From: Variovorax sp. OAS795
Lineage (GTDB): Bacteria > Pseudomonadota > Gammaproteobacteria > Burkholderiales > Burkholderiaceae_C
Assembly (NCBI RefSeq): GCF_040546685.1
Contig: NZ_JBEPOH010000001.1
Location: 5,146,001 to 5,210,000, forward strand
DNA: 64,000 bases
Reading direction: 5' to 3'
Shown here: positions 7,551-16,463 of the stretch, in pieces
How the letters are laid out: every line of letters starts with the position of its first letter
How positions within the stretch are numbered: position 1 is the stretch's first letter
Notes under the pieces: generated by a model
The model's input: the letters and a program-made list of their open reading frames with translations, nothing else
What the model was told of the DNA's origin: nothing
Database searches by the model: none
Translations under genes and position numbers: made by a program

Positions 7551-8615
7551 TCAGACTCCGAAAAGATCCTGTCCGTCGGAGCGGCTCGAAGGCGGTGCCA
7601 CGCCGAGATGGCGGTAGGCCGCCAGCGTGGCGATGCGCCCGCGCGGCGTGCGCTGCAGGTAGCCCTGCTGGATCAGGTAGGGCTCGATCACGTCCTCGAT
7701 GGTGCCCGGCTCCTCGCCGATGCTGGCCGCCACGTTGTCCAAGCCCACCGGCCCGCCGTCGAAGCGGTGGATCACGGCCTCGAGCAGCTTGCGGTCCATC
7801 AGGTCGAAGCCCTGCGGATCGACGTCGAGCATGGCGAGCGCCTTGTGCGCGATCTCTTCGGTGATGCGGCCGTTGCCCTTCACCTCGGCATAGTCGCGCA
7901 CGCGGCGCAGCAGGCGGTTGGCGATGCGGGGCGTACCGCGCGAACGGCGCGCGATCTCGAAGCCGCCGGCGGTGTCGGTCTCCACCTTGAGCAGGCCGGC
8001 GCTGCGCCGCACGATGAGCGCCAGTTCTTCCGGCGTGTAGAACTCCAGCCGCGCCACGATGCCGAAGCGGTCGCGCAGCGGGTTGGTGAGCATGCCGGCA
8101 CGGGTGGTGGCGCCCACCAGCGTGAAGGGCTGCAGGTCGAGCTTGATGCTGCGCGCCGCGGGGCCTTCGCCGATCATGATGTCGATCTGGTAGTCCTCCA
8201 GCGCGGGGTAGAGGATTTCCTCGACCACCGGGCTCAGGCGGTGGATCTCGTCGATGAAGAGCACGTCGTTCGGCTCGAGGTTGGTCAGGAGCGCCGCCAG
8301 GTCCTTGGGCTTCTCGAGCACCGGCCCGGAGGTCTGGCGCAGGTTCACGCCCAGCTCGGCCGCAATGATGTGCGACAGCGTGGTCTTGCCGAGGCCCGGC
8401 GGGCCGAAGAGCAGCACGTGGTCGAGCGCTTCCTTGCGCTTGCGCGCGGCGCCGATGAAGATCTCGAGCTGCTCGCGCACCTTGGCCTGCCCGACGTATT
8501 CGTCGAGCAGCTTGGGGCGCAATGCCCGCTCGATGGCCTCTTCCTGCGGGGAAGCGGGGGCGGCGGACACCACGCGGGGCGGCGCGGGGGCGAAATCGTC
8601 GGTCTGGATGGTCAT
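7551..8615 (-). CDS. ruvB: RuvB, Holliday-junction branch-migration ATPase
   Basis: A 354-residue AAA+ motor that with RuvA drives branch migration of Holliday junctions. Walker [10 protein letters not shown] is at residues 71-79, Walker B FIDEIHRL near 121-128, the sensor region GATTRAG follows, and the C-terminal winged helix contains RTPRGR. The ATG at 8615 gives the normal length; an in-frame extension to 8735 overlaps the divergent gene and is rejected. In many bacteria ruvA and ruvB are adjacent, but here ruvA lies 7.3 kb away on the same strand. Confidence 0.97.
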
Positions 8616-8737
8616 GGGGTGAGGGGCTGCGCCGGCAAGTTTAGTCCGAGCGCACGGCGCGGGGCAGCGAGGACGCGAAGCCAATGCCCACACTGGCAGA
8701 ATGCTTCGGCCATATAACGAACGAGGGGAAGCCAAGG

Positions 8738-9340
8738 GTGTCGATCTACGAACTGAAGCCTCGGTTCCAGGCGCTGCTGCGGCCGCTGGCCGGCCGCCTG
8801 CACGCGATGGGCATCACCGCCAACCAGGTCACGGTGGCCGCGTGCGCAGTGTCGGCCGCACTCGGGCTCTGGCTCTTCTTCGCGGTGCCATCGCGCGCGG
8901 CCTTCGCGCTCGTTCCGGCCTGGATGTTCGTGCGCATGGCGTTCAACGCCATCGACGGCATGCTGGCGCGCGAGTACGGGCAGCAGAGCAAGCTGGGCGC
9001 CTTCCTCAACGAGCTGACCGACGTGGTCTCCGACGCTGCGCTGTACCTGCCTTTCGCGCTGGTGCAGCCGTTCAGCCCGTTCTGGGTCGGCACCGTCATC
9101 ATGCTGGCGGGCCTGAGCGAGTTCGCCGGCGCCCTGGGCCCCACGGTGGGCGCATCGCGCCGCTACGACGGGCCGCTCGGCAAGAGCGACCGTGCCTTCG
9201 TGTTCGGCGCGCTCGGCCTTTACGTGGCGCTGGGCTGGCCGCTGCCGGGCTGGACGGCATGGCTGATGCCCCTTGTTGCGGCGCTGGTGGCCTGGACGGT
9301 GGCCAACCGTGTCCGCCGGGCGCTGGCCGAAGCCGCTTGA
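8738..9340 (+). CDS. ynbA: YnbA-like CDP-alcohol phosphatidyltransferase
   Basis: A 200-residue membrane enzyme of the CDP-alcohol phosphotransferase family, which joins a CDP-activated lipid (or alcohol) to a second alcohol. The family motif is recognisable at about residues 71-95 (NAIDGMLAR ... GAFLNELTD), but the first and third metal-binding Asp of the usual DxxDGxxAR-GxxxDxxxD are Asn here. The DG, AR and last Asp are kept. I use the GTG at 8738, since the motif and first helix follow normally; a longer frame to 8684 lacks support. A TATAAC at 8713-8718 may be the -10 box. It heads the ynb-like operon; ynbC follows after 42 bases. The substrate is unknown. Confidence 0.82.
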
Positions 9341-9382
9341 ACCGCACACAGACAAACAAAGAGAAACAGCAACAGGGAATCA

Positions 9383-11149
9383 ATGACCGACACCGACAAA
9401 TCACGCATCCCGCAAGAGCGGCAGTTCCGCACGCACGACGGCGAATCGCTCTTCTACCGGCACTGGCCGGCCACTGGCGCTGCACGGCGCGGCGCCATCG
9501 TGCTGTTCCACCGCGGCCACGAGCATGGCGCGCGCATGGCGCACCTGGTCGACGAACTCGACCTGCCCGACTTCGACTTCTTTGCCTGGGACGCGCGCGG
9601 CCACGGCCGCTCGCCGGGCCAGCGCGGCTACAGCCCGAGCTTTGCGACCTCGGTGCGCGACGTGCAGACCTTCGTGCAGCACATCGGCGGCGCGCATGGC
9701 GTGGCGGAGCACGACATCCACGTGATCGCACAGAGCGTGGGGGCCGTGCTGGTCTCCACCTGGGCGCACGACTACGCACCCAAGGTGCGCGGGCTCACGC
9801 TGGCCTCGCCGGCCTTCAAGGTCAAGCTCTACGTGCCGTTTGCGCGCGCCGGGCTGGGGCTGATGCACAAGCTGCGCGGCCTGTTCTTCGTCAACAGCTA
9901 CGTGAAGGCGAAGTTCCTCACGCACGACCCCGAGCGCATTGCGAGCTACGAAAGCGATCCGCTGATCTCGCGGCCGATCGCCGTGAACATCCTGCTCGGC
10001 CTCTATGAAGCGGCCGACCGCGTGGTGGCCGATGCCAACGCCATCACGCTGCCTGTGCAGCTGCTGGTCTCGGGCGCGGACTGGGTGGTGCACCACAAGC
10101 CGCAGCACCAGTTCTTCGAGCGGCTGGGCAGCGCCGTCAAGACCAAGCTGGAGCTGCCGGGCTTCTTCCACGACACCCTGGGCGAAAAAGACCGCGCGCC
10201 CGCGGTCCAGGCGATTCGGGCCTTCATCCTGCAGCTGTTCGACCAGCCGACCGCGCCGGTCGACCTGCGTGCGGCGCACCTGCACGGCAACACCGCCGAC
10301 GAGTCGCGCGCACTGGCCGAGCCGCTCGCGCCACTGTCGCCGCGCGGCGCCTACTGGGCCATGACGCGCGCCGGCCTGCGCCTCGGCGGCAAGCTGTCGA
10401 GCGGCGTCGCCCTGGGCCACGCCACCGGCTTCGATTCGGGCAGCACGCTCGACTATGTCTACCGCAACCATCCTGAAGGCAAGGGGCCGCTGGGCCGCTC
10501 CATCGACAACACCTACCTGAACTCCATCGGCTGGCGCGGCATCCGGCAGCGCAAGATCCATGTCGAGGAGCTGATCCGCATCGCGATGGAACGCCTGGCC
10601 GAAATGCACCGCGAGGTGCGCGTGATGGACATTGCGGCCGGCCATGGACGCTACGTGCTCGACGCGGTGGCCGCGAGCCCCGTGAAAGCCAGCTCCATCC
10701 TGCTGCGCGACTACAGCGACATCAACGTGCGCGACGGCCGCGCGCTCATTGCCGAGAAGGGCCTGGAAGATGTCGCACAGTTCGTGCAGGCCGACGCCTT
10801 CGACCGCATCAGCCTGGCGACCGTGACGCCGCGCCCCACGCTGGCCGTGGTGTCCGGCCTCTACGAACTGTTCCCTGACAACGAGATGGTCCGGCGTTCG
10901 CTGGCGGGCGTGGGCGATGCGGTGGAAGACCGCGGCTACCTGGTCTACACCGGCCAGCCCTGGCATCCGCAGCTCGAGATGATCGCGCGCGCGCTCACCA
11001 GCCATCGCCAGGGCGAAGCCTGGGTGATGCGACGCCGCACGCAGGGCGAGATGGACCAGCTGGTGGAAGAAGCCGGCTTCCGCAAGATCGACCAGCGCGT
11101 CGACGAGTGGGGCATCTTCACCGTCTCGCTCGCGGTGCGGATGGCATGA
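9383..11149 (+). CDS. ynbC: YnbC-like alpha/beta-hydrolase fused to SAM methyltransferase
   Basis: A 588-residue two-domain protein. Residues about 10-290 are an alpha/beta hydrolase: nucleophile S118 in IAQSVG, acid D in GADWV near 234, His in FFHDTLGE near 262. This resembles monoacylglycerol lipases and lysophospholipases. Residues about 350-588 are a class I methyltransferase with the SAM glycine motif MDIAAGHGRY near 414. Length and layout match E. coli YnbC. No signal peptide or membrane helix is seen, so it likely acts at the cytoplasmic membrane face. Joined to a phospholipid operon, it could trim an acyl chain and methylate a head group; that is inference. Confidence 0.85.
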   Translation: MTDTDKSRIPQERQFRTHDGESLFYRHWPATGAARRGAIVLFHRGHEHGARMAHLVDELDLPDFDFFAWDARGHGRSPGQRGYSPSFATSVRDVQTFVQHIGGAHGVAEHDIHVIAQSVGAVLVSTWAHDYAPKVRGLTLASPAFKVKLYVPFARAGLGLMHKLRGLFFVNSYVKAKFLTHDPERIASYESDPLISRPIAVNILLGLYEAADRVVADANAITLPVQLLVSGADWVVHHKPQHQFFERLGSAVKTKLELPGFFHDTLGEKDRAPAVQAIRAFILQLFDQPTAPVDLRAAHLHGNTADESRALAEPLAPLSPRGAYWAMTRAGLRLGGKLSSGVALGHATGFDSGSTLDYVYRNHPEGKGPLGRSIDNTYLNSIGWRGIRQRKIHVEELIRIAMERLAEMHREVRVMDIAAGHGRYVLDAVAASPVKASSILLRDYSDINVRDGRALIAEKGLEDVAQFVQADAFDRISLATVTPRPTLAVVSGLYELFPDNEMVRRSLAGVGDAVEDRGYLVYTGQPWHPQLEMIARALTSHRQGEAWVMRRRTQGEMDQLVEEAGFRKIDQRVDEWGIFTVSLAVRMA

Positions 11150-11168
11150 CCCCGAGGCACGTCGCGCA

Positions 11169-12518
11169 ATGAAGCACTGGCTGGCGCAGCGCCCCTGGAA
11201 GCGGGCCGCGGCATGGCTGGTGTTCCTGGGGCCGCTGTTCTATGCGACCTACGGCCTTGCCAACTGGTGGGCCACCACGCGCGCGCAGGTGCCGTCCATG
11301 GCCTTTGCGTGGGAGCGGCAGGTGCCGTTCTGGGCCTGGACGATCTTTCCGTACTGGACCATCAACGTCTTCTACGCGCTTTCGCTCTTTCTTGCGCGCA
11401 GCAAGCACACGCTCGACCGGCATGCGCTGCGGCTCGTGAGCGCCACCCTCATTGCCTGCACCTGCTTCGTCATCTGGCCGCTGCATTTCAGTTTCGGCCA
11501 ACCGGCGGTCGAGGGCGCACCGGCCTTTCTCTTCGATGCCTTGCGCGGCTTCGACCAGCCCTACAACCAGGCGCCTTCGCTGCACATCGCGCTGGCGGTG
11601 ATCCTGTGGGACTGGTACCGGCAGTTCCTGCGCGCCGCGTGGGCAAGGTGGGTGCTGCATGTGTGGGCTTTTGCCATTTGCGCGTCGGTGCTCACGACCT
11701 GGCAGCACCACTTCATCGACATTCCCACTGGCGCGCTTCTGGGCCTGTTCTGCGTCTGGCTGTGGCCGCTGGAGCGCACGGTGTCGATGCCGCGGGCCTG
11801 GCAGTGCACGCGCGATGCGCAGCGCTGGAAGCTCGCGGGGTTCTATGCCGCCGGGGCGGCGCTGTTTCTTGCTGCCGCCCTGTATGGCGCGGGCCTGTGG
11901 CTGTGGCTCGCCTGGCCCGCGGTTTCGCTGGCGATGGTGGCACTCGGCTACATCGGTTTCGGGGCGCGTGGGTTCCAGATGAACGGCCGCGGCCGAATGG
12001 GCTGGGCCGCGCGGTGGCTTTTTGCGCCCTATCGCCTGGGCGCAGCGGTCAATGCATGGCTCTGGACACGCAAGCTGCCAGCGTCGGTCGAAGTCGTGCC
12101 TGGCCTTCGACTCGGACGCCTGCCGACGAAGGCCGAATGGATCGCGGCCGGCAAGCCCCGGCTCGTGAGCCTGTGTGCCGAACTGCAGGTGCCCGCCGGT
12201 GTGCCGCATGCGCGCTGCGTGCCGGTGCTCGACCTGACGGTACCGCCGACCGTGCGGCTGCAACGGGCGGCGGCCGTCATCGAAGCACAGCGCCGCAACA
12301 CCGAAGGCGCGCCGGTATGGGTCTGCTGCGCCCTGGGCTTTTCGCGCAGCGCCGCGGCGTCGATCGCATGGCTGGGGCGCTACGGCGCGGCAGGCGGCAT
12401 GGCGCAAGCCGAGGACGCGGTGCGCCTCGCCCGGCCGCAGATCGTGCTGCGCCCGGCCTGGCGGGTTTCGCTCGAGCCGCTGGGCACCGCTGCGCCAGCA
12501 GGGCCGCCCCATGACTGA
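11169..12518 (+). CDS. ynbD: YnbD-like PAP2 phosphatase fused to dual-specificity phosphatase
   Basis: A 449-residue membrane protein. The N-terminal 290 residues hold about eight helices with a PAP2 (lipid phosphate phosphatase) core: PSLH at 136-139 and HHFID at 180-184 with catalytic-type H181/D184. The C-terminal cytoplasmic part (about 300-449) is a dual-specificity phosphatase with the Cx5R loop CALGFSRS (nucleophile C387, R393); the usual preceding His is Cys. Two phosphatases in one chain point to removing phosphate from a lipid intermediate, as PTPMT1 does for phosphatidylglycerophosphate. It follows ynbC by 19 bases and overlaps the next gene by 8. Confidence 0.83.
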   Translation: MKHWLAQRPWKRAAAWLVFLGPLFYATYGLANWWATTRAQVPSMAFAWERQVPFWAWTIFPYWTINVFYALSLFLARSKHTLDRHALRLVSATLIACTCFVIWPLHFSFGQPAVEGAPAFLFDALRGFDQPYNQAPSLHIALAVILWDWYRQFLRAAWARWVLHVWAFAICASVLTTWQHHFIDIPTGALLGLFCVWLWPLERTVSMPRAWQCTRDAQRWKLAGFYAAGAALFLAAALYGAGLWLWLAWPAVSLAMVALGYIGFGARGFQMNGRGRMGWAARWLFAPYRLGAAVNAWLWTRKLPASVEVVPGLRLGRLPTKAEWIAAGKPRLVSLCAELQVPAGVPHARCVPVLDLTVPPTVRLQRAAAVIEAQRRNTEGAPVWVCCALGFSRSAAASIAWLGRYGAAGGMAQAEDAVRLARPQIVLRPAWRVSLEPLGTAAPAGPPHD

Positions 12519-12951
12519 CAACGAGCGCGCCACCTGCGCGGCCCTTGCCGGGCTGCTGCGCGCGGCCACGGTGCTGGCGGCGTGGGGCTTCGCGTTGATG
12601 TGCATCGCGGCGCTGGTGCTCGCGCTCACCATGCGATCGCTCTCCGCCACCGCCGCCATGAGCTTTGGCGCGGTGGTGGTGCTCGGTGCGCTCGAACGCT
12701 ATTTCGCTTTCAGGCTGCGGCTCGACCAGGCGCTGTTCGCCGACGTGGCAAGCGGCCCCATCGCATCGCTCGATGCGCTGGACAGCGCGCTCGAGCGGCT
12801 CGGCCTGCGCGATGCGCAGCCACCCGCGGCTTCCCGGCCGCTCGCCGACCGCGTGCAAGGCACCCGGCAGCTCATGCAGCGCCATGCCATCGTCGTCGCC
12901 TGCCAGAGTGCGATGTTCCTCCTTGCCTTGATGACACAGGACCTGCCGTGA
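12511..12951 (+). CDS. Unknown membrane protein inside the ynb-like operon
   Basis: A 146-residue protein I cannot assign to a family. It has two close N-terminal transmembrane helices (about residues 18-42 and 48-62), a soluble stretch of about 65 residues with alternating small and acidic residues, and a final hydrophobic segment near the C-terminus (about 125-142). Its start overlaps the ynbD stop by eight bases and its stop overlaps the acyltransferase start (GTGA), so it is translated together with lipid enzymes. It might be a scaffold or accessory subunit, or an acyl-acceptor-binding partner; nothing in the sequence decides this. Confidence 0.7.
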   Translation: MTDNERATCAALAGLLRAATVLAAWGFALMCIAALVLALTMRSLSATAAMSFGAVVVLGALERYFAFRLRLDQALFADVASGPIASLDALDSALERLGLRDAQPPAASRPLADRVQGTRQLMQRHAIVVACQSAMFLLALMTQDLP

Positions 12952-13670
12952 CCGAAGAAATCAACGACGACGAAAAAGACCAGCGCCCCGAAAGCACGGT
13001 GCTGCGCCGCGCGCTCGCCGTGGTGGCGGGCAAGCTGATCATCGGCGCGGCCGGCCTCCTGACGGGCGTTCGCGCCATCTGGAGCGGCACCACGCCCAAG
13101 GCCGAGCAGACGCTGTATTTTGCCAACCACACGAGCCACGGCGACTTCGTGCTGCTGTGGGCGACGCTTCCGCCCGACCTGCGCGCGCTGACGCGGCCGG
13201 TGGCCGGGCAGGACTACTGGATGGCTTCCAAGGTGCGCCAGTTCATCGGCGCGGACGTGTTCAACGCGCTGATGATCCGGCGCGACGGATCGGGCCAGGG
13301 CGGCAACCCGGTCGACCAGATGAAGGAGGCGCTGGAAGGCGGCGACTCCCTCATCATGTTCCCCGAGGGCACGCGCAACACCGGCGACGAGATCCTGCTG
13401 CCGCTCAAGAGCGGCCTCTTTCACCTGGCGCGCGCCTGCCCCAACGTGCGGCTGGTGCCGGTGTGGATCGAGAACCTCAAGCGCGTGCTGCCCAAGGGCA
13501 CGCTGGTGCCGATCCCGCTCGCCTGCACGGTGCGCTTCGGCACGCCCATCCGGCTGGCCGAAGGCGAAGACAAGGCCAGCTTCATTGCACGCGCACGTGC
13601 CGCCATGCTCGACCTGCGCCCCGAGTACGACCGCGTGCCGGAACAAGAAAAGGCAGCCGCCACGCCATGA
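12948..13670 (+). CDS. PlsC-like 1-acyl-glycerol-3-phosphate acyltransferase
   Basis: A 240-residue acyltransferase of the PlsC family, which acylates lysophosphatidic acid or a related acceptor to give phosphatidic acid. The catalytic HX4D is HTSHGD (H61, D66), and the substrate-binding block FPEGTR is at 138-143. One hydrophobic segment near residues 21-42 could anchor it. The GTG start at 12948 lies in a GTGA overlap with the preceding membrane protein; its own stop overlaps the cytidylyltransferase start (ATGA). Its place right before a CdsA-like gene fits a chain from lysophosphatidate to phosphatidate to CDP-diacylglycerol. E. coli ynbABCD, as I recall it, has no such gene. Confidence 0.88.
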   Translation: MTEEINDDEKDQRPESTVLRRALAVVAGKLIIGAAGLLTGVRAIWSGTTPKAEQTLYFANHTSHGDFVLLWATLPPDLRALTRPVAGQDYWMASKVRQFIGADVFNALMIRRDGSGQGGNPVDQMKEALEGGDSLIMFPEGTRNTGDEILLPLKSGLFHLARACPNVRLVPVWIENLKRVLPKGTLVPIPLACTVRFGTPIRLAEGEDKASFIARARAAMLDLRPEYDRVPEQEKAAATP

Positions 13671-14620
13671 ACATGTTGCCCTCGACCCAGACCACGCTGC
13701 AATTGTTCGGCGGTGTTGCCGGCGTGCTGATTCTTGCCTCGGCCATTGGCGCGCTGCTCAAGTGGCGCGTGGCGCAAGGCCAGCCCAACACCGTGGTCGA
13801 CAACCTCAACGCGCGCGTGAACGCGTGGTGGGTGATGGTGGCTGTGATCGGCGTTGCCTTCGCGTTCGGCAAAGGCGGCGTGATCGTGCTGTTCTACCTG
13901 ATCTCCTTCTACGCGCTGCGCGAGTTCATCAGCCTGGCCTACACCCGGCGCGGCGACCACCATGCGATTGCGGCGGCTTTCTACATCGGGCTGCCGGTCC
14001 AGTATTTTCTGGTGTGGATCGACTGGTACGGCCTCTATTCGATCTTCATTCCTGTCTATGCCTTTCTGGTGCTGCCGATCCTGGCGGCCGTGGGCGGCGA
14101 CACGCAGCGCTTTCTTGAACGCACCTCGAAGATCCAGTGGGGCCTGATGATCTGCGTGTTCTGCATCAGCCACGTGCCCGCGCTGCTCACGCTGCAGATC
14201 CCCGGCTTCGAGGGCCGCAACCTGCTGCTGATCGCCTTCCTCGTGATCGTGGTGCAGGGCAGCGACGTGCTGCAGTACGTGTGGGGCAAGCTCTTCGGCC
14301 GGCGCAAGGTGGCGCCCGAGCTCTCGCCCTCCAAGACCTGGGAAGGCCTCGTCGGCGGCGTGGCCAGCGCCACCGCACTGGGCGCCGCGCTCTACTGGGC
14401 CACGCCGTTCAACCCCTGGCAGGCCGCGCTGATGGCGCTCACGATCTGCCTCATGGGTTTCTTCGGCGGGCTCGTGATGTCGGCCATCAAGCGCGACCGC
14501 GGGGTGAAGGACTGGGGTTCGATGATCGAAGGCCACGGCGGCATGCTCGACCGGCTCGATTCGGTGATCTTCGCGGCACCGATCTATTTCCATGCGCTGC
14601 GCTACTGGTGGGTGCCGTGA
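13667..14620 (+). CDS. ynbB: YnbB/CdsA-like phosphatidate cytidylyltransferase
   Basis: A 317-residue polytopic membrane protein (about eight helices) that should condense phosphatidate with CTP to CDP-diacylglycerol. The C-terminal CDP-diglyceride synthetase signature is complete over about residues 270-297: SAIKRDRGVKDWG then EGHGGMLDRLD. It starts in an ATGA overlap with the acyltransferase and ends in a GTGA overlap with the next gene. It supplies the substrate class used by the YnbA-like enzyme at the head of the operon. It is more likely a paralogue than the housekeeping CdsA, since no rseP, dxr or bam genes are near. Confidence 0.88.
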   Translation: MNMLPSTQTTLQLFGGVAGVLILASAIGALLKWRVAQGQPNTVVDNLNARVNAWWVMVAVIGVAFAFGKGGVIVLFYLISFYALREFISLAYTRRGDHHAIAAAFYIGLPVQYFLVWIDWYGLYSIFIPVYAFLVLPILAAVGGDTQRFLERTSKIQWGLMICVFCISHVPALLTLQIPGFEGRNLLLIAFLVIVVQGSDVLQYVWGKLFGRRKVAPELSPSKTWEGLVGGVASATALGAALYWATPFNPWQAALMALTICLMGFFGGLVMSAIKRDRGVKDWGSMIEGHGGMLDRLDSVIFAAPIYFHALRYWWVP

Positions 14621-15228
14621 ACACGCGTGCCACGCCAGCAAAGGCTGTCGAGCGCGTCGCGCACGACACACCCGTCGAATGCACCACCGCCGCTTCATGG
14701 GAACGGTGGCTCAACCGGCACCATGCCGCCGCGGCGGGTGTGTGGCTGCGAATGGCGAAGAAGGACAGCGGCATTGCGTCGGTCACCCACGCGGAAGCGC
14801 TCGAAGTTGCGCTGTGCTACGGCTGGATCGACGGCCAGCGCAAGTCCGAAGACGAGCGGCACTTCCTGCAGCGCTTCACGCCGCGAACCGCGCGCAGCAC
14901 CTGGTCGAAGATCAACCGGGACAAGGCACTGAAGCTGATCGAAGAAGGCCGCATGCAGCCTGCCGGCCTGGCCGAGGTCGAGCGCGCCCGCGCCGACGGC
15001 CGCTGGGAGGCGGCTTACGACGCCCAGAGCGTTGCCACCGTGCCGCCCGACTTGCAGGCCGCCCTCGACGCGAACCCCAAGGCCGCTGCCTTCTTCGCCA
15101 AGCTCGATTCGCGCAACCGCTATGCGGTGCTGTTCCGCACGCAGGGTGCGAAGAAGCCCGAAACCCGGGCGCGGCGTATCGGGCGATTCGTGGAAATGCT
15201 GGCCAAGGGCGAGAAGCTCTATCCTTGA
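14617..15228 (+). CDS. YdeI/OmpD-associated (OmdA) family protein
   Basis: A 203-residue soluble protein with the YdeI/OmdA family features: the block CYGWIDGQRK near residue 69 and the helical C-terminal region ending in RFVEMLAKGEKLYP. Members have been linked to envelope stress and bacteriocin protection, but no biochemical activity is established. The GTG start overlaps the YnbB-like stop (GTGA), so it is coupled to the lipid operon and is its last gene; the next gene is convergent. The coupling is the only hint of a lipid-related role. Confidence 0.75.
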   Translation: MNTRATPAKAVERVAHDTPVECTTAASWERWLNRHHAAAAGVWLRMAKKDSGIASVTHAEALEVALCYGWIDGQRKSEDERHFLQRFTPRTARSTWSKINRDKALKLIEEGRMQPAGLAEVERARADGRWEAAYDAQSVATVPPDLQAALDANPKAAAFFAKLDSRNRYAVLFRTQGAKKPETRARRIGRFVEMLAKGEKLYP

Positions 15229-15243
15229 GTACCGCCGCAGGCG

Positions 15244-15864
15244 CTACGTATCCGTTCTCTGGAGCGTGTACTCGCCGGGCTTGTATGGTCCCATGGCCAC
15301 GCCGACGTCCCACAGCTTCAGCGCACCAGGCAAGACGGCCTGGCTGCCAATCTTGGCAACACCGCGTTTTCGGATTTCGCGATTGAGGCGGGACGAGAAG
15401 GACGTGATCCTGCCGAAGTCCCAGGCCTCGACCCCGCCGAGAACGTCCACGGTGTCCGACCACGCCTGTGCGCGCTTCATCGAGTTGTGGTTGGTGTGCG
15501 AGTTTTCCAGTCGCGCATCGCCCGCGGAGGCCGAGCCCAGGTACAGCTGCACCAGGCCCCAGCCATCGGCGTTGTAGCGGAATGTGGCACCACCGCAAGC
15601 CTGCGGGTTCAGGCTTACGCGGCGCGGTACGAAGGCGGGGCCCGCGCCGCGCACATACAGCTGCAGATGCACGGCATGCCACCTCCTGCCGTTGGGATAG
15701 CTGCGATCGAACTGCGCCAGCACTTCGGCCGCCGAGCGGAAACATCTCAGCGGTTGCTCGAAGTCGGACGCGAGTTCGTAGACGTCGCAGCTTTCTTCGG
15801 CGAACAGCCAAGAGAGCAGGCTGTCGTGGTCTTCCTTCGTGGCGTAGAAGTCGCAGTTGGGCAT
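15244..15864 (-). CDS. Hypothetical protein, 206 residues
   Basis: No family recognised. It starts MPNCDFYATKEDH, is soluble and rich in aromatic residues, and has a central part with repeated short hydrophobic strands (AVHLQLYVRG, GLVQLYLG), suggesting a beta-rich fold. There is no signal peptide or membrane segment. It lies between the convergent end of the ynb-like operon and ruvA, 26 bases downstream of ruvA on the same strand, so it may be transcribed with ruvA. Its base composition is slightly less GC-rich by eye than its neighbours, which may mean acquisition. Confidence 0.6.
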   Translation of the reverse strand: MPNCDFYATKEDHDSLLSWLFAEESCDVYELASDFEQPLRCFRSAAEVLAQFDRSYPNGRRWHAVHLQLYVRGAGPAFVPRRVSLNPQACGGATFRYNADGWGLVQLYLGSASAGDARLENSHTNHNSMKRAQAWSDTVDVLGGVEAWDFGRITSFSSRLNREIRKRGVAKIGSQAVLPGALKLWDVGVAMGPYKPGEYTLQRTDT

Positions 15865-15890: not shown

Positions 15891-16463
15891 CTACTTCGCC
15901 AGCGCCTTCAGCGCCAGCTTGATGCCCTCGCTCACCGTCGCATCCTTGGGCAGCGCCTTGAGCGCGAGCGCGGCTTCCTTGTCGCTGTAGCCGAGCGCGA
16001 CCAGCGCCTGCAGGATGTCAGCCTGCGCATCGGATGCCGCATGCGCGGGCAGGCCGATGTCGGCGCCCAGCTTGCCCTTGAGCTCCAGCAGCAGGCGCTC
16101 GGCGGTCTTCTTGCCGATGCCCGGGATCTTCACGAGGCGGCCGAGCTCCTGCGTGGTGATCGCCTGCGCCAGCTCGCCCACGCTCATGCCGGAGAGCAGG
16201 CCGAGCGCGGTGCGGGGGCCCACGCCGGTGATCTTGATGAGTTGCCGAAAAGCCGCACGCTCCTCGGCGGTGCCGAAACCGTAGAGAATCTGCGCGTCCT
16301 CGCGCACCACGAAGTGCGTGAGCAGCGAAACGCGCTCCCCGGTGCCGGGCAGGTTGTAGAACGTGCTCATCGGCACATCGACCTCGTAGCCGACGCCGTT
16401 GCAGTCCACCACCACCTGCGGCGGGTTGCGCTCGGCGAGGATGCCGGTGAGTTTGCCTATCAT
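15891..16463 (-). CDS. ruvA: RuvA, Holliday-junction DNA-binding protein
   Basis: A 190-residue protein of normal length that binds the four-way junction as a tetramer and loads RuvB. It shows the N-terminal OB fold ([20 protein letters not shown]), the helix-hairpin-helix repeats ([15 protein letters not shown] and [18 protein letters not shown], about residues 77-125) and the small C-terminal RuvB-binding domain ([13 protein letters not shown]). The start is divergent from phoH with only about 20 bases between, so the promoters of each must lie within or very near the other gene. The usual neighbour ruvC is absent. Confidence 0.97.

Follow-up and report, generated by a model that had tools for sequence, protein, structure and literature searches.

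The window analysed here, a 64,000-nucleotide stretch from Variovorax sp. OAS795 (C1:5146001-5210000 of a 6.09 Mb genome), carries at 8738-15228 a run of seven genes, A to G, the first six of which are, judged by sequence, orthologues, gene for gene and in the same order, of arc1A-F (PA2541-PA2536), the antagonism resistance cluster 1 of Pseudomonas aeruginosa. A preliminary description had placed seven co-directional genes there, overlapping at four of six junctions, and had taken them for an orphan phospholipid pathway. Each of the seven reading frames was recovered on the + strand, with overlaps of 8 bp at C/D and 4 bp each at D/E, E/F and F/G, and with gaps at the other two junctions (42 bp at A/B and 19 bp at B/C). 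The seven gene assignments made at that stage stand; a Pfam scan gave family support for every enzyme, save for the domains of gene C, which scored under their cut-offs, and alignment with relatives backs GTG at 8738 as the start of gene A.

8738 (GTG)-9340, + strand: gene A, cytidine diphosphate (CDP)-alcohol phosphotransferase with N70, D73, N91 and D95; orthologue of PA2541 (arc1A) and ynbA
9383-11149, + strand: gene B, fusion of a monoacylglycerol-lipase-like hydrolase and a class I methyltransferase; arc1B, ynbC
11169-12518, + strand: gene C, fusion of a membrane PAP2-type domain and a dual-specificity phosphatase; arc1C, ynbD
12511-12951, + strand: gene D, 146-aa membrane protein of no known family; arc1D
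12948 (GTG)-13670, + strand: gene E, PlsC-type acyltransferase; arc1E
13667-14620, + strand: gene F, CDP-diacylglycerol synthase paralogue (CdsA-like); arc1F = PA2536, ynbB
14617 (GTG)-15228, + strand: gene G, OmdA/YdeI-family protein (PF13376), a genus-level addition

We base the assignment to arc1 on gene order and identity in P. aeruginosa PA7 (L099) together with the positions of the PA2541 and PA2536 primers published in PMC8926400. By tblastn the PA7 proteins are 60 (A), 70 (B), 50 (C), 51 (E) and 71% (F) identical to those of the window, and gene D was recognised by profile (E 2e-44). In PA7 the first base of gene A is where the PA2541 start primer matches, 21/21, and the PA2536 deletion-junction primer matches 18/18 just upstream of gene F; four other primer parts match with 0, 1, 1 and 1 mismatches, and two further parts with 4 and 5, the last of them lying away from the operon and counting as no match. 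The primers place only the end genes A and F, the four inner genes being assigned by order. Naming in that paper is uneven (its methods say Arc1F and its expression primers are those of PA2541), and we adopted 'arc1A-F (PA2541-36)'.

The likeness to E. coli ynbABCD that had been proposed for this locus was borne out: in E. coli MG1655 (L040), homologues of all four Ynb proteins lie in one cluster, at 44 (ynbA), 39 (ynbB), 58 (ynbC) and 37% (ynbD) identity. Neither a PlsC nor the small membrane protein was found at the E. coli locus by tblastn and, for gene D, by profile, and on this comparison ynbABCD is a rearranged form of arc1 without genes D and E. PlsC and the new membrane protein, earlier taken for additions to a ynbABCD-type set, are instead part of the six-gene arc1A-F, and it is the E. 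coli form that lacks both. The ynbABCD region is matched in 4579 of 5426 complete E. coli genomes and held to at least 80% in one place in 4242 of 5426; the three matches listed each carry an insertion element inside the region. A word beginning 'ynb' was not found in the main text of PMC8926400.

The distribution of the operon was surveyed with the fused protein B as anchor, in 100 genomes sampled from the genus, in a wider set of 30 loci (26 from a phylum sample of 398 genomes, 3 from a class sample of 274 genomes, and E. coli K-12) and in a Pseudomonas set made up of the best 80, each named, of 311 loci found. Weak matches to the methyltransferase family were left out (two in the phylum sample, and three class-sample genomes at 19-38 bits). 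The methyltransferase family of gene B occurs in 27 of the 398 phylum genomes, this one included, and in 12 of 212 genera; within the genus, protein B was found in 72/100 genomes, with no match in the other 28, some of them incomplete. Near B in the wider survey we found homologues of A in 30/30 loci, C in 27/30, F in 27/30, E in 24/30 and G in 1/30, and A-B-C-E-F share one direction and order in 21/30. The same order holds in 78/80 Pseudomonas loci, the exceptions being a contig that ends before A (L149) and a full-length locus with B, C and D only (L131), where neither A, E nor F was found in the flanks. In the two sets combined a gene D homologue follows C in 105/107 loci, 54 of them recognised by tblastn and a further 51 by profile; none was found in the E. 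coli locus or in L069. The preliminary description had let its reading depend on whether the genes stay together outside this genus, and in the survey the gene order recurs far outside it, more than chance would give. A new operon type of this genus was discarded, given the 78/80 ordered Pseudomonas loci, in which D follows C.

The most unusual protein of the operon is that of gene A. CDP-alcohol phosphotransferases carry the signature D1xxD2GxxAR...GxxxD3xxxD4, eight residues of which are called absolutely conserved (PMC4634129), D1-D3 binding metal and D4 being the likely base (PMC4634129; see also PMC6506517). Gene A has the fold of the class I family and fails this four-aspartate signature, since D1 and D3 are Asn:

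8945..8947, + strand: Asn70 codon, signature position D1
9008..9010, + strand: Asn91 codon, signature position D3

Both Asn are present in 109/109 sequences (the window protein and 108 orthologues, 78 of them from Pseudomonas; no gene A was available from L131 and L149). The remaining six signature residues, D2 and D4 among them, are likewise kept in 109/109. A database search returned the same N-D-N-D pattern in all of the 120 matches listed, of 7999 scored, and the three other CDP-alcohol phosphotransferases of this genome read D-D-D-D. We report Asn at D1 and D3, alongside partners whose catalytic residues are nearly all kept, as apparently new; nothing on such a signature turned up in the literature searched, though it may already have been published. 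Decay of gene A was considered and rejected as unlikely, because B, C, E and F show little or no variation at the catalytic residues checked and both Asn are invariant in the sequences compared. A role for gene A as a phosphatidylinositol phosphate synthase was also rejected: the fold fits but the residue after D4, which in those synthases is always K or R (PMC6506517), does not: the window has V96 there, the 120 matches listed have V or L, and the aligned sequences have V, I, L, M or A. As to the two acceptor-phosphate arginines of the M. tuberculosis enzyme, a HMMER alignment pairs R191 with R195 and puts R152 one column off R155. No inositol family in Pfam or NCBIfam is matched by any of the other six genes.

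The partner enzymes retain nearly all the catalytic residues checked. Gene B combines PF12146 (Hydrolase_4) with PF12147 (Methyltransf_20), and its hydrolase residues S118, D233 and H263 and methyltransferase residues D416, G420, G422 and D443 are kept in 111/111 sequences; its best solved relatives are monoacylglycerol lipases (E 2.8e-25), with a weaker match to lysophospholipase L2 (34 bits, cut-off 362). Gene C matches PF14378, PF01569 and PF00782 at scores below their cut-offs. It combines a dual-specificity phosphatase fold with a CX5R active site, as in phosphatases of the PTPMT1 kind, with C387, R393 and D355 kept in 108/108 sequences and the PAP2 residues D129, S137, H139, H181 and D184 in 107/108. 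Structure comparison likened its phosphatase domain to dual-specificity phosphatases and PTPMT1, the search (predicted local distance difference test, pLDDT, of the model 74.2) having its match list filled by this domain and barely probing the PAP2 part. Gene C may be a phospholipid-phosphate phosphatase, although neither its fold nor its motif identifies the substrate. Gene D has no match in Pfam, NCBIfam or PADLOC. In gene E (PF01553), H61 and D66 are kept in 103/104 sequences (one has an X) and E140, G141 and R143 in 104/104, and in gene F (PF01148, cytidylyltransferase, 239 bits) S220, K223, K275, R276, K281, D282, H290, D295, R296 and D298 are kept in 107/107.

Relatives of gene A outside the operon point to a wider association. 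A gene A profile run against 150 genomes (E up to 1e-6), a small sample from one phylum, gave 25 matches in 24 genomes. Of these, 13 score 217-333 bits and count as strong, and 12 score 34-74 bits and count as weak, the weak ones comprising five Asn-type and seven Asp-type proteins. Within flanks of 1.5 kb all five weak Asn-type genes have an F-like CdsA and four of the five an E-like PlsC, and in longer flanks both adjoin in 5/5. Neither CdsA nor PlsC was found in the 1.5 kb flanks of ten Asp-type genes, namely the seven weak matches and the three of this genome. Because Asn-type kin adjoin CdsA and PlsC (5/5) and Asp-type genes do not within 1.5 kb (0/10), the comparison suggests that a distinct lipid module exists, with arc1/ynbABCD as its elaborate form. 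Two strong gene-A loci in genomes without B (L185, L186) carry A-F-E alone; A, E and F look like a core module, which arc1 extends with B, C and D. In a third strong locus outside the operon (L187), A and F look broken, remnants between neighbouring open frames.

Taking this further, we put forward, tentatively and at somewhat less than even confidence, that the proteins with NxxD...NxxxD form a distinct transferase class tied to its own CdsA and PlsC. Such a class would run a self-contained module from phosphatidate to CDP-diacylglycerol to product, with or without the lipase-methyltransferase and phosphatase of arc1, and would differ from ordinary enzymes in metal arrangement, donor or acceptor. 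It would make an undescribed phospholipid, with arc1/ynbABCD as its defence-linked form. The five weak Asn-type loci (L173-L176, L184) form a second Asn-type group, in which the Arg of 'AR' is Val or Ile and an Arg follows D4; all five stand beside PlsC and CdsA homologues. Separately, L059 and L060 (genomes G253 and G043) have A, B and C with no E or F found, and in G043 another Asn-type gene lies elsewhere together with E and F (L190), as though the module had been divided.

What looks local about the operon is its last gene. The YdeI-family protein had been described as an addition, and rightly so: gene G is adjacent and co-directional in 51/72 operon-bearing genus genomes, and its one occurrence near B among the 30 wider-survey loci is in the single same-genus locus. 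A non-adjacent homologue is present in 8/72, one of them 123 kb away and seven on another contig, in drafts where adjacency cannot be judged; none was found in 13/72, and nine sampled genus genomes have a homologue without the operon. Gene G matches PF13376 at 83.5 bits, and Pfam names OmdA as a bacteriocin-protection family; a search of the PDB with the protein gave 0 hits. OmdA/YdeI looks to be the only local, genus-level gene, and the operon is arc1, a known kind, with this addition.

The operon sits between ruvA (15891-16463, - strand) and ruvB (7551 to about 8615, - strand), with the following interval upstream of gene A.

8616..8737, no strand: gap between ruvB and gene A, presumed promoter region (ruvB on the - strand, its domains matched in 7554-8615 and its start taken as the ATG at 8615)

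In five operon-bearing genus genomes tested, ruvA and ruvB are 5.8 to 17.8 kb apart with gene B between them; the spacing is 1 to 1492 bp in eight operon-less genus genomes, and two further genera of this family have 2 and 989 bp. A divergent copy of the operon (B 65% identical, genome G740) occupies the same site. Between operon and ruvA lies an open reading frame of 206 aa (15244-15864, - strand) with zero matches in the Pfam scan. No sigma-70-like site was found by a promoter scan of 8616..8737, and a terminator scan gave four terminator-like sites against 3.7 expected. A known anti-phage system was considered and discarded, none of the seven proteins being matched by PADLOC.

In P. aeruginosa, arc1 is induced through Gac/Rsm (eLife 2022, PMC8926400), and PA2541 is among the genes with a single known RsmA site (PMC4066749). 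A search for CsrA/RsmA (PF02599) gave 0 matches in this genome and was positive in 3 of 14 controls, including E. coli; another signal should therefore control the operon here. A(N)GGA sites lie within 40 bases before gene A in 69/78 Pseudomonas loci and 16/30 others, counts that are hardly informative as these sites overlap the ribosome-binding site; the 40 bases before gene A of the window contain none.

A defence function of arc1 has been shown by others in P. aeruginosa. Mutants in arc1 are less fit under attack by the type VI secretion system (T6SS) of B. thailandensis, a second deletion within the operon has no added effect, and five of the six products are phospholipid-related (PMC8926400). 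Loss of arc1A sensitises to V. cholerae, less so if the attacker has no active lipase TseL, and to A. baylyi with the lipase Tle1 only (PMC12663445, 2025). Among the phylum genomes, a T6SS sheath gene is present in 19/27 operon-bearing genomes vs 69/371 without the methyltransferase family (Fisher p 3e-8) and, by genus, in 10/12 vs 46/200 (p 4e-5), a genus counting as positive if any sampled genome has the gene. An Arc3A-family protein is likewise present in 14/27 vs 71/371 (p 3e-4). This genome has three T6SS sheath-family matches (C1:1089651, 1876745 and 2678835) and an Arc3A-like (DUF2339) protein at C1:1922230-1925337, about 45 kb from one of them. We treat these associations as supporting evidence only, because ancestry and genome size are uncorrected.

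Taken together, genes A-F probably form an arc1-type operon for a dedicated line of phospholipid synthesis and remodelling that helps the cell survive membrane damage by rivals, lipase toxins especially. The idea of a dedicated phospholipid pathway was, in our judgement, right from the start; the word 'orphan' no longer wholly fits a pathway whose P. aeruginosa orthologue has a published defence role (PMC8926400, PMC12663445), although the accessible parts of those papers name no lipid product. By analogy with arc1 we infer the same defence role in this organism. Separately from housekeeping phospholipid synthesis, PlsC (gene E) would acylate lysophosphatidate to phosphatidate, the CdsA/YnbB protein (gene F) would activate phosphatidate to CDP-diacylglycerol, and the Asn-type gene A would transfer the phosphatidyl group to an acceptor that is either a small alcohol or an alcohol phosphate. 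The phosphatase domain of gene C would then strip a phosphate, its PAP2 domain perhaps handling an outer-face lipid phosphate; gene B would deacylate lysolipid through its lipase domain and, through its methyltransferase domain, methylate the product or the head group, and gene D would be a partner in the membrane. The line would end in a replacement lipid able to resist phospholipases or repair their damage. In this genus an OmdA-family gene appears to have joined the operon, which lies between ruvA and ruvB.

Several observations weigh against this reading. Gene A is without two of the four metal-binding aspartates, and its central reaction may therefore differ or be absent; the accessible parts of the literature searched name no lipid product for arc1 or ynbABCD. 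In P. aeruginosa, the arc1 mutant was rescued by none of the single-toxin deletions tried in B. thailandensis (PMC8926400), and the effect of arc1A is merely auxiliary beside arc3A (PMC12663445). With no CsrA/RsmA found in this genome, the control known for P. aeruginosa arc1 is not expected here. The T6SS and Arc3A statistics ignore shared ancestry and genome size, 8/27 operon carriers have no T6SS sheath gene, and the T6SS association is not judgeable within single families, the genomes without matches not all being listed. Nor is the gene set uniform in the wider survey: no F was found in 3/30 loci (L059, L060, L065), no E in 6/30 (L059, L060, L065, L040, L068, L069) and no C in 3/30 (L065, L066, L068). 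Gene A is opposite to B in L059, L060 and L068, E and F are reversed in direction in L064, L067 is arranged A-B-C-F-E, L040 and L069 are arranged A-F-B-C, and gene C is shortened in L137. At L187, outside the operon, F is present and no E was found.

The competing account that survives best, though we think it unlikely at perhaps one chance in a few, is that the operon serves chiefly to clean up lysophospholipids, the lipase of gene B stripping lysolipids made by toxins and the synthesis genes rebuilding ordinary phosphatidylglycerol. The lipase-like relatives of gene B fit such a role, as do the sensitivity to lipase toxins on arc1A loss (PMC12663445) and the resemblance of four arc1 products to phosphatidylglycerol-synthesis enzymes (PMC8926400); yet the genome already has its three phosphotransferases with the ordinary Asp signature, the A-E-F module occurs without B and C, and ordinary phosphatidylglycerol does not need a methyltransferase. 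Slightly less likely again, gene A could be a non-catalytic binder or regulator of CDP-diacylglycerol (or CDP) that steers the product of F elsewhere, for example to an MPIase-type glycolipid with a pyrophosphate linkage. All sequences compared retain both Asn, and Asn-type enzymes keep a CdsA alongside; moreover, CdsA and YnbB can start MPIase in E. coli, where YnbB overproduction raises MPIase without replacing CdsA (PMC6362211). A mere binder, however, would not need D2 and D4 (the proposed base), which are invariant in gene A, deletion of ynbB alone caused no significant change in MPIase (PMC6362211), and no sugar-handling family was found among the seven genes in Pfam or NCBIfam. That the operon is a redundant set of phospholipid gene copies, without special role and together by chance, is very improbable and already largely refuted: operon-less genomes are common (the 28/100 of the genus, some incomplete), but order and catalytic residues are kept across distant families and loss of arc1 has a phenotype in P. 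aeruginosa (PMC8926400).

The comparison links the uncharacterised ynbABCD of E. coli to a cluster with a known defence phenotype, which makes the E. coli operon testable in a laboratory strain. A lipid enzymologist would be surprised chiefly by the Asn-type transferase and by its association with CdsA and PlsC. If the Asn signature marks different chemistry, the 'absolutely conserved' residue set has a widespread natural exception, and there is an undiscovered bacterial phospholipid to be found.

Compared with known systems, gene F retains the C-terminal catalytic signature of CdsA, with the difference that Glu stands in 99/107 sequences at the position of the Pro that the usual CdsA signature includes. 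Homology to CdsA is confined to the C-terminal half, as stated for YnbB, and E. coli YnbB cannot replace CdsA (PMC6362211). Gene A differs from phosphatidylinositol phosphate synthases (RsPIPS, M. tuberculosis PgsA1) and from archaetidylinositol phosphate synthase in its Asn at D1 and D3, and the Arg after D4 (R94) that is critical in PgsA1 is Val in gene A. With arc1 the operon shares the same six genes in one direction and order; it differs in the OmdA gene that follows, in its site between ruvA and ruvB and in that, with no CsrA/RsmA found in this genome, Gac/Rsm control is not expected. With ynbABCD it shares homologues of A, F, B and C, arranged A-F-B-C there and A-B-C-D-E-F in the window, and YnbA too carries the Asn signature.

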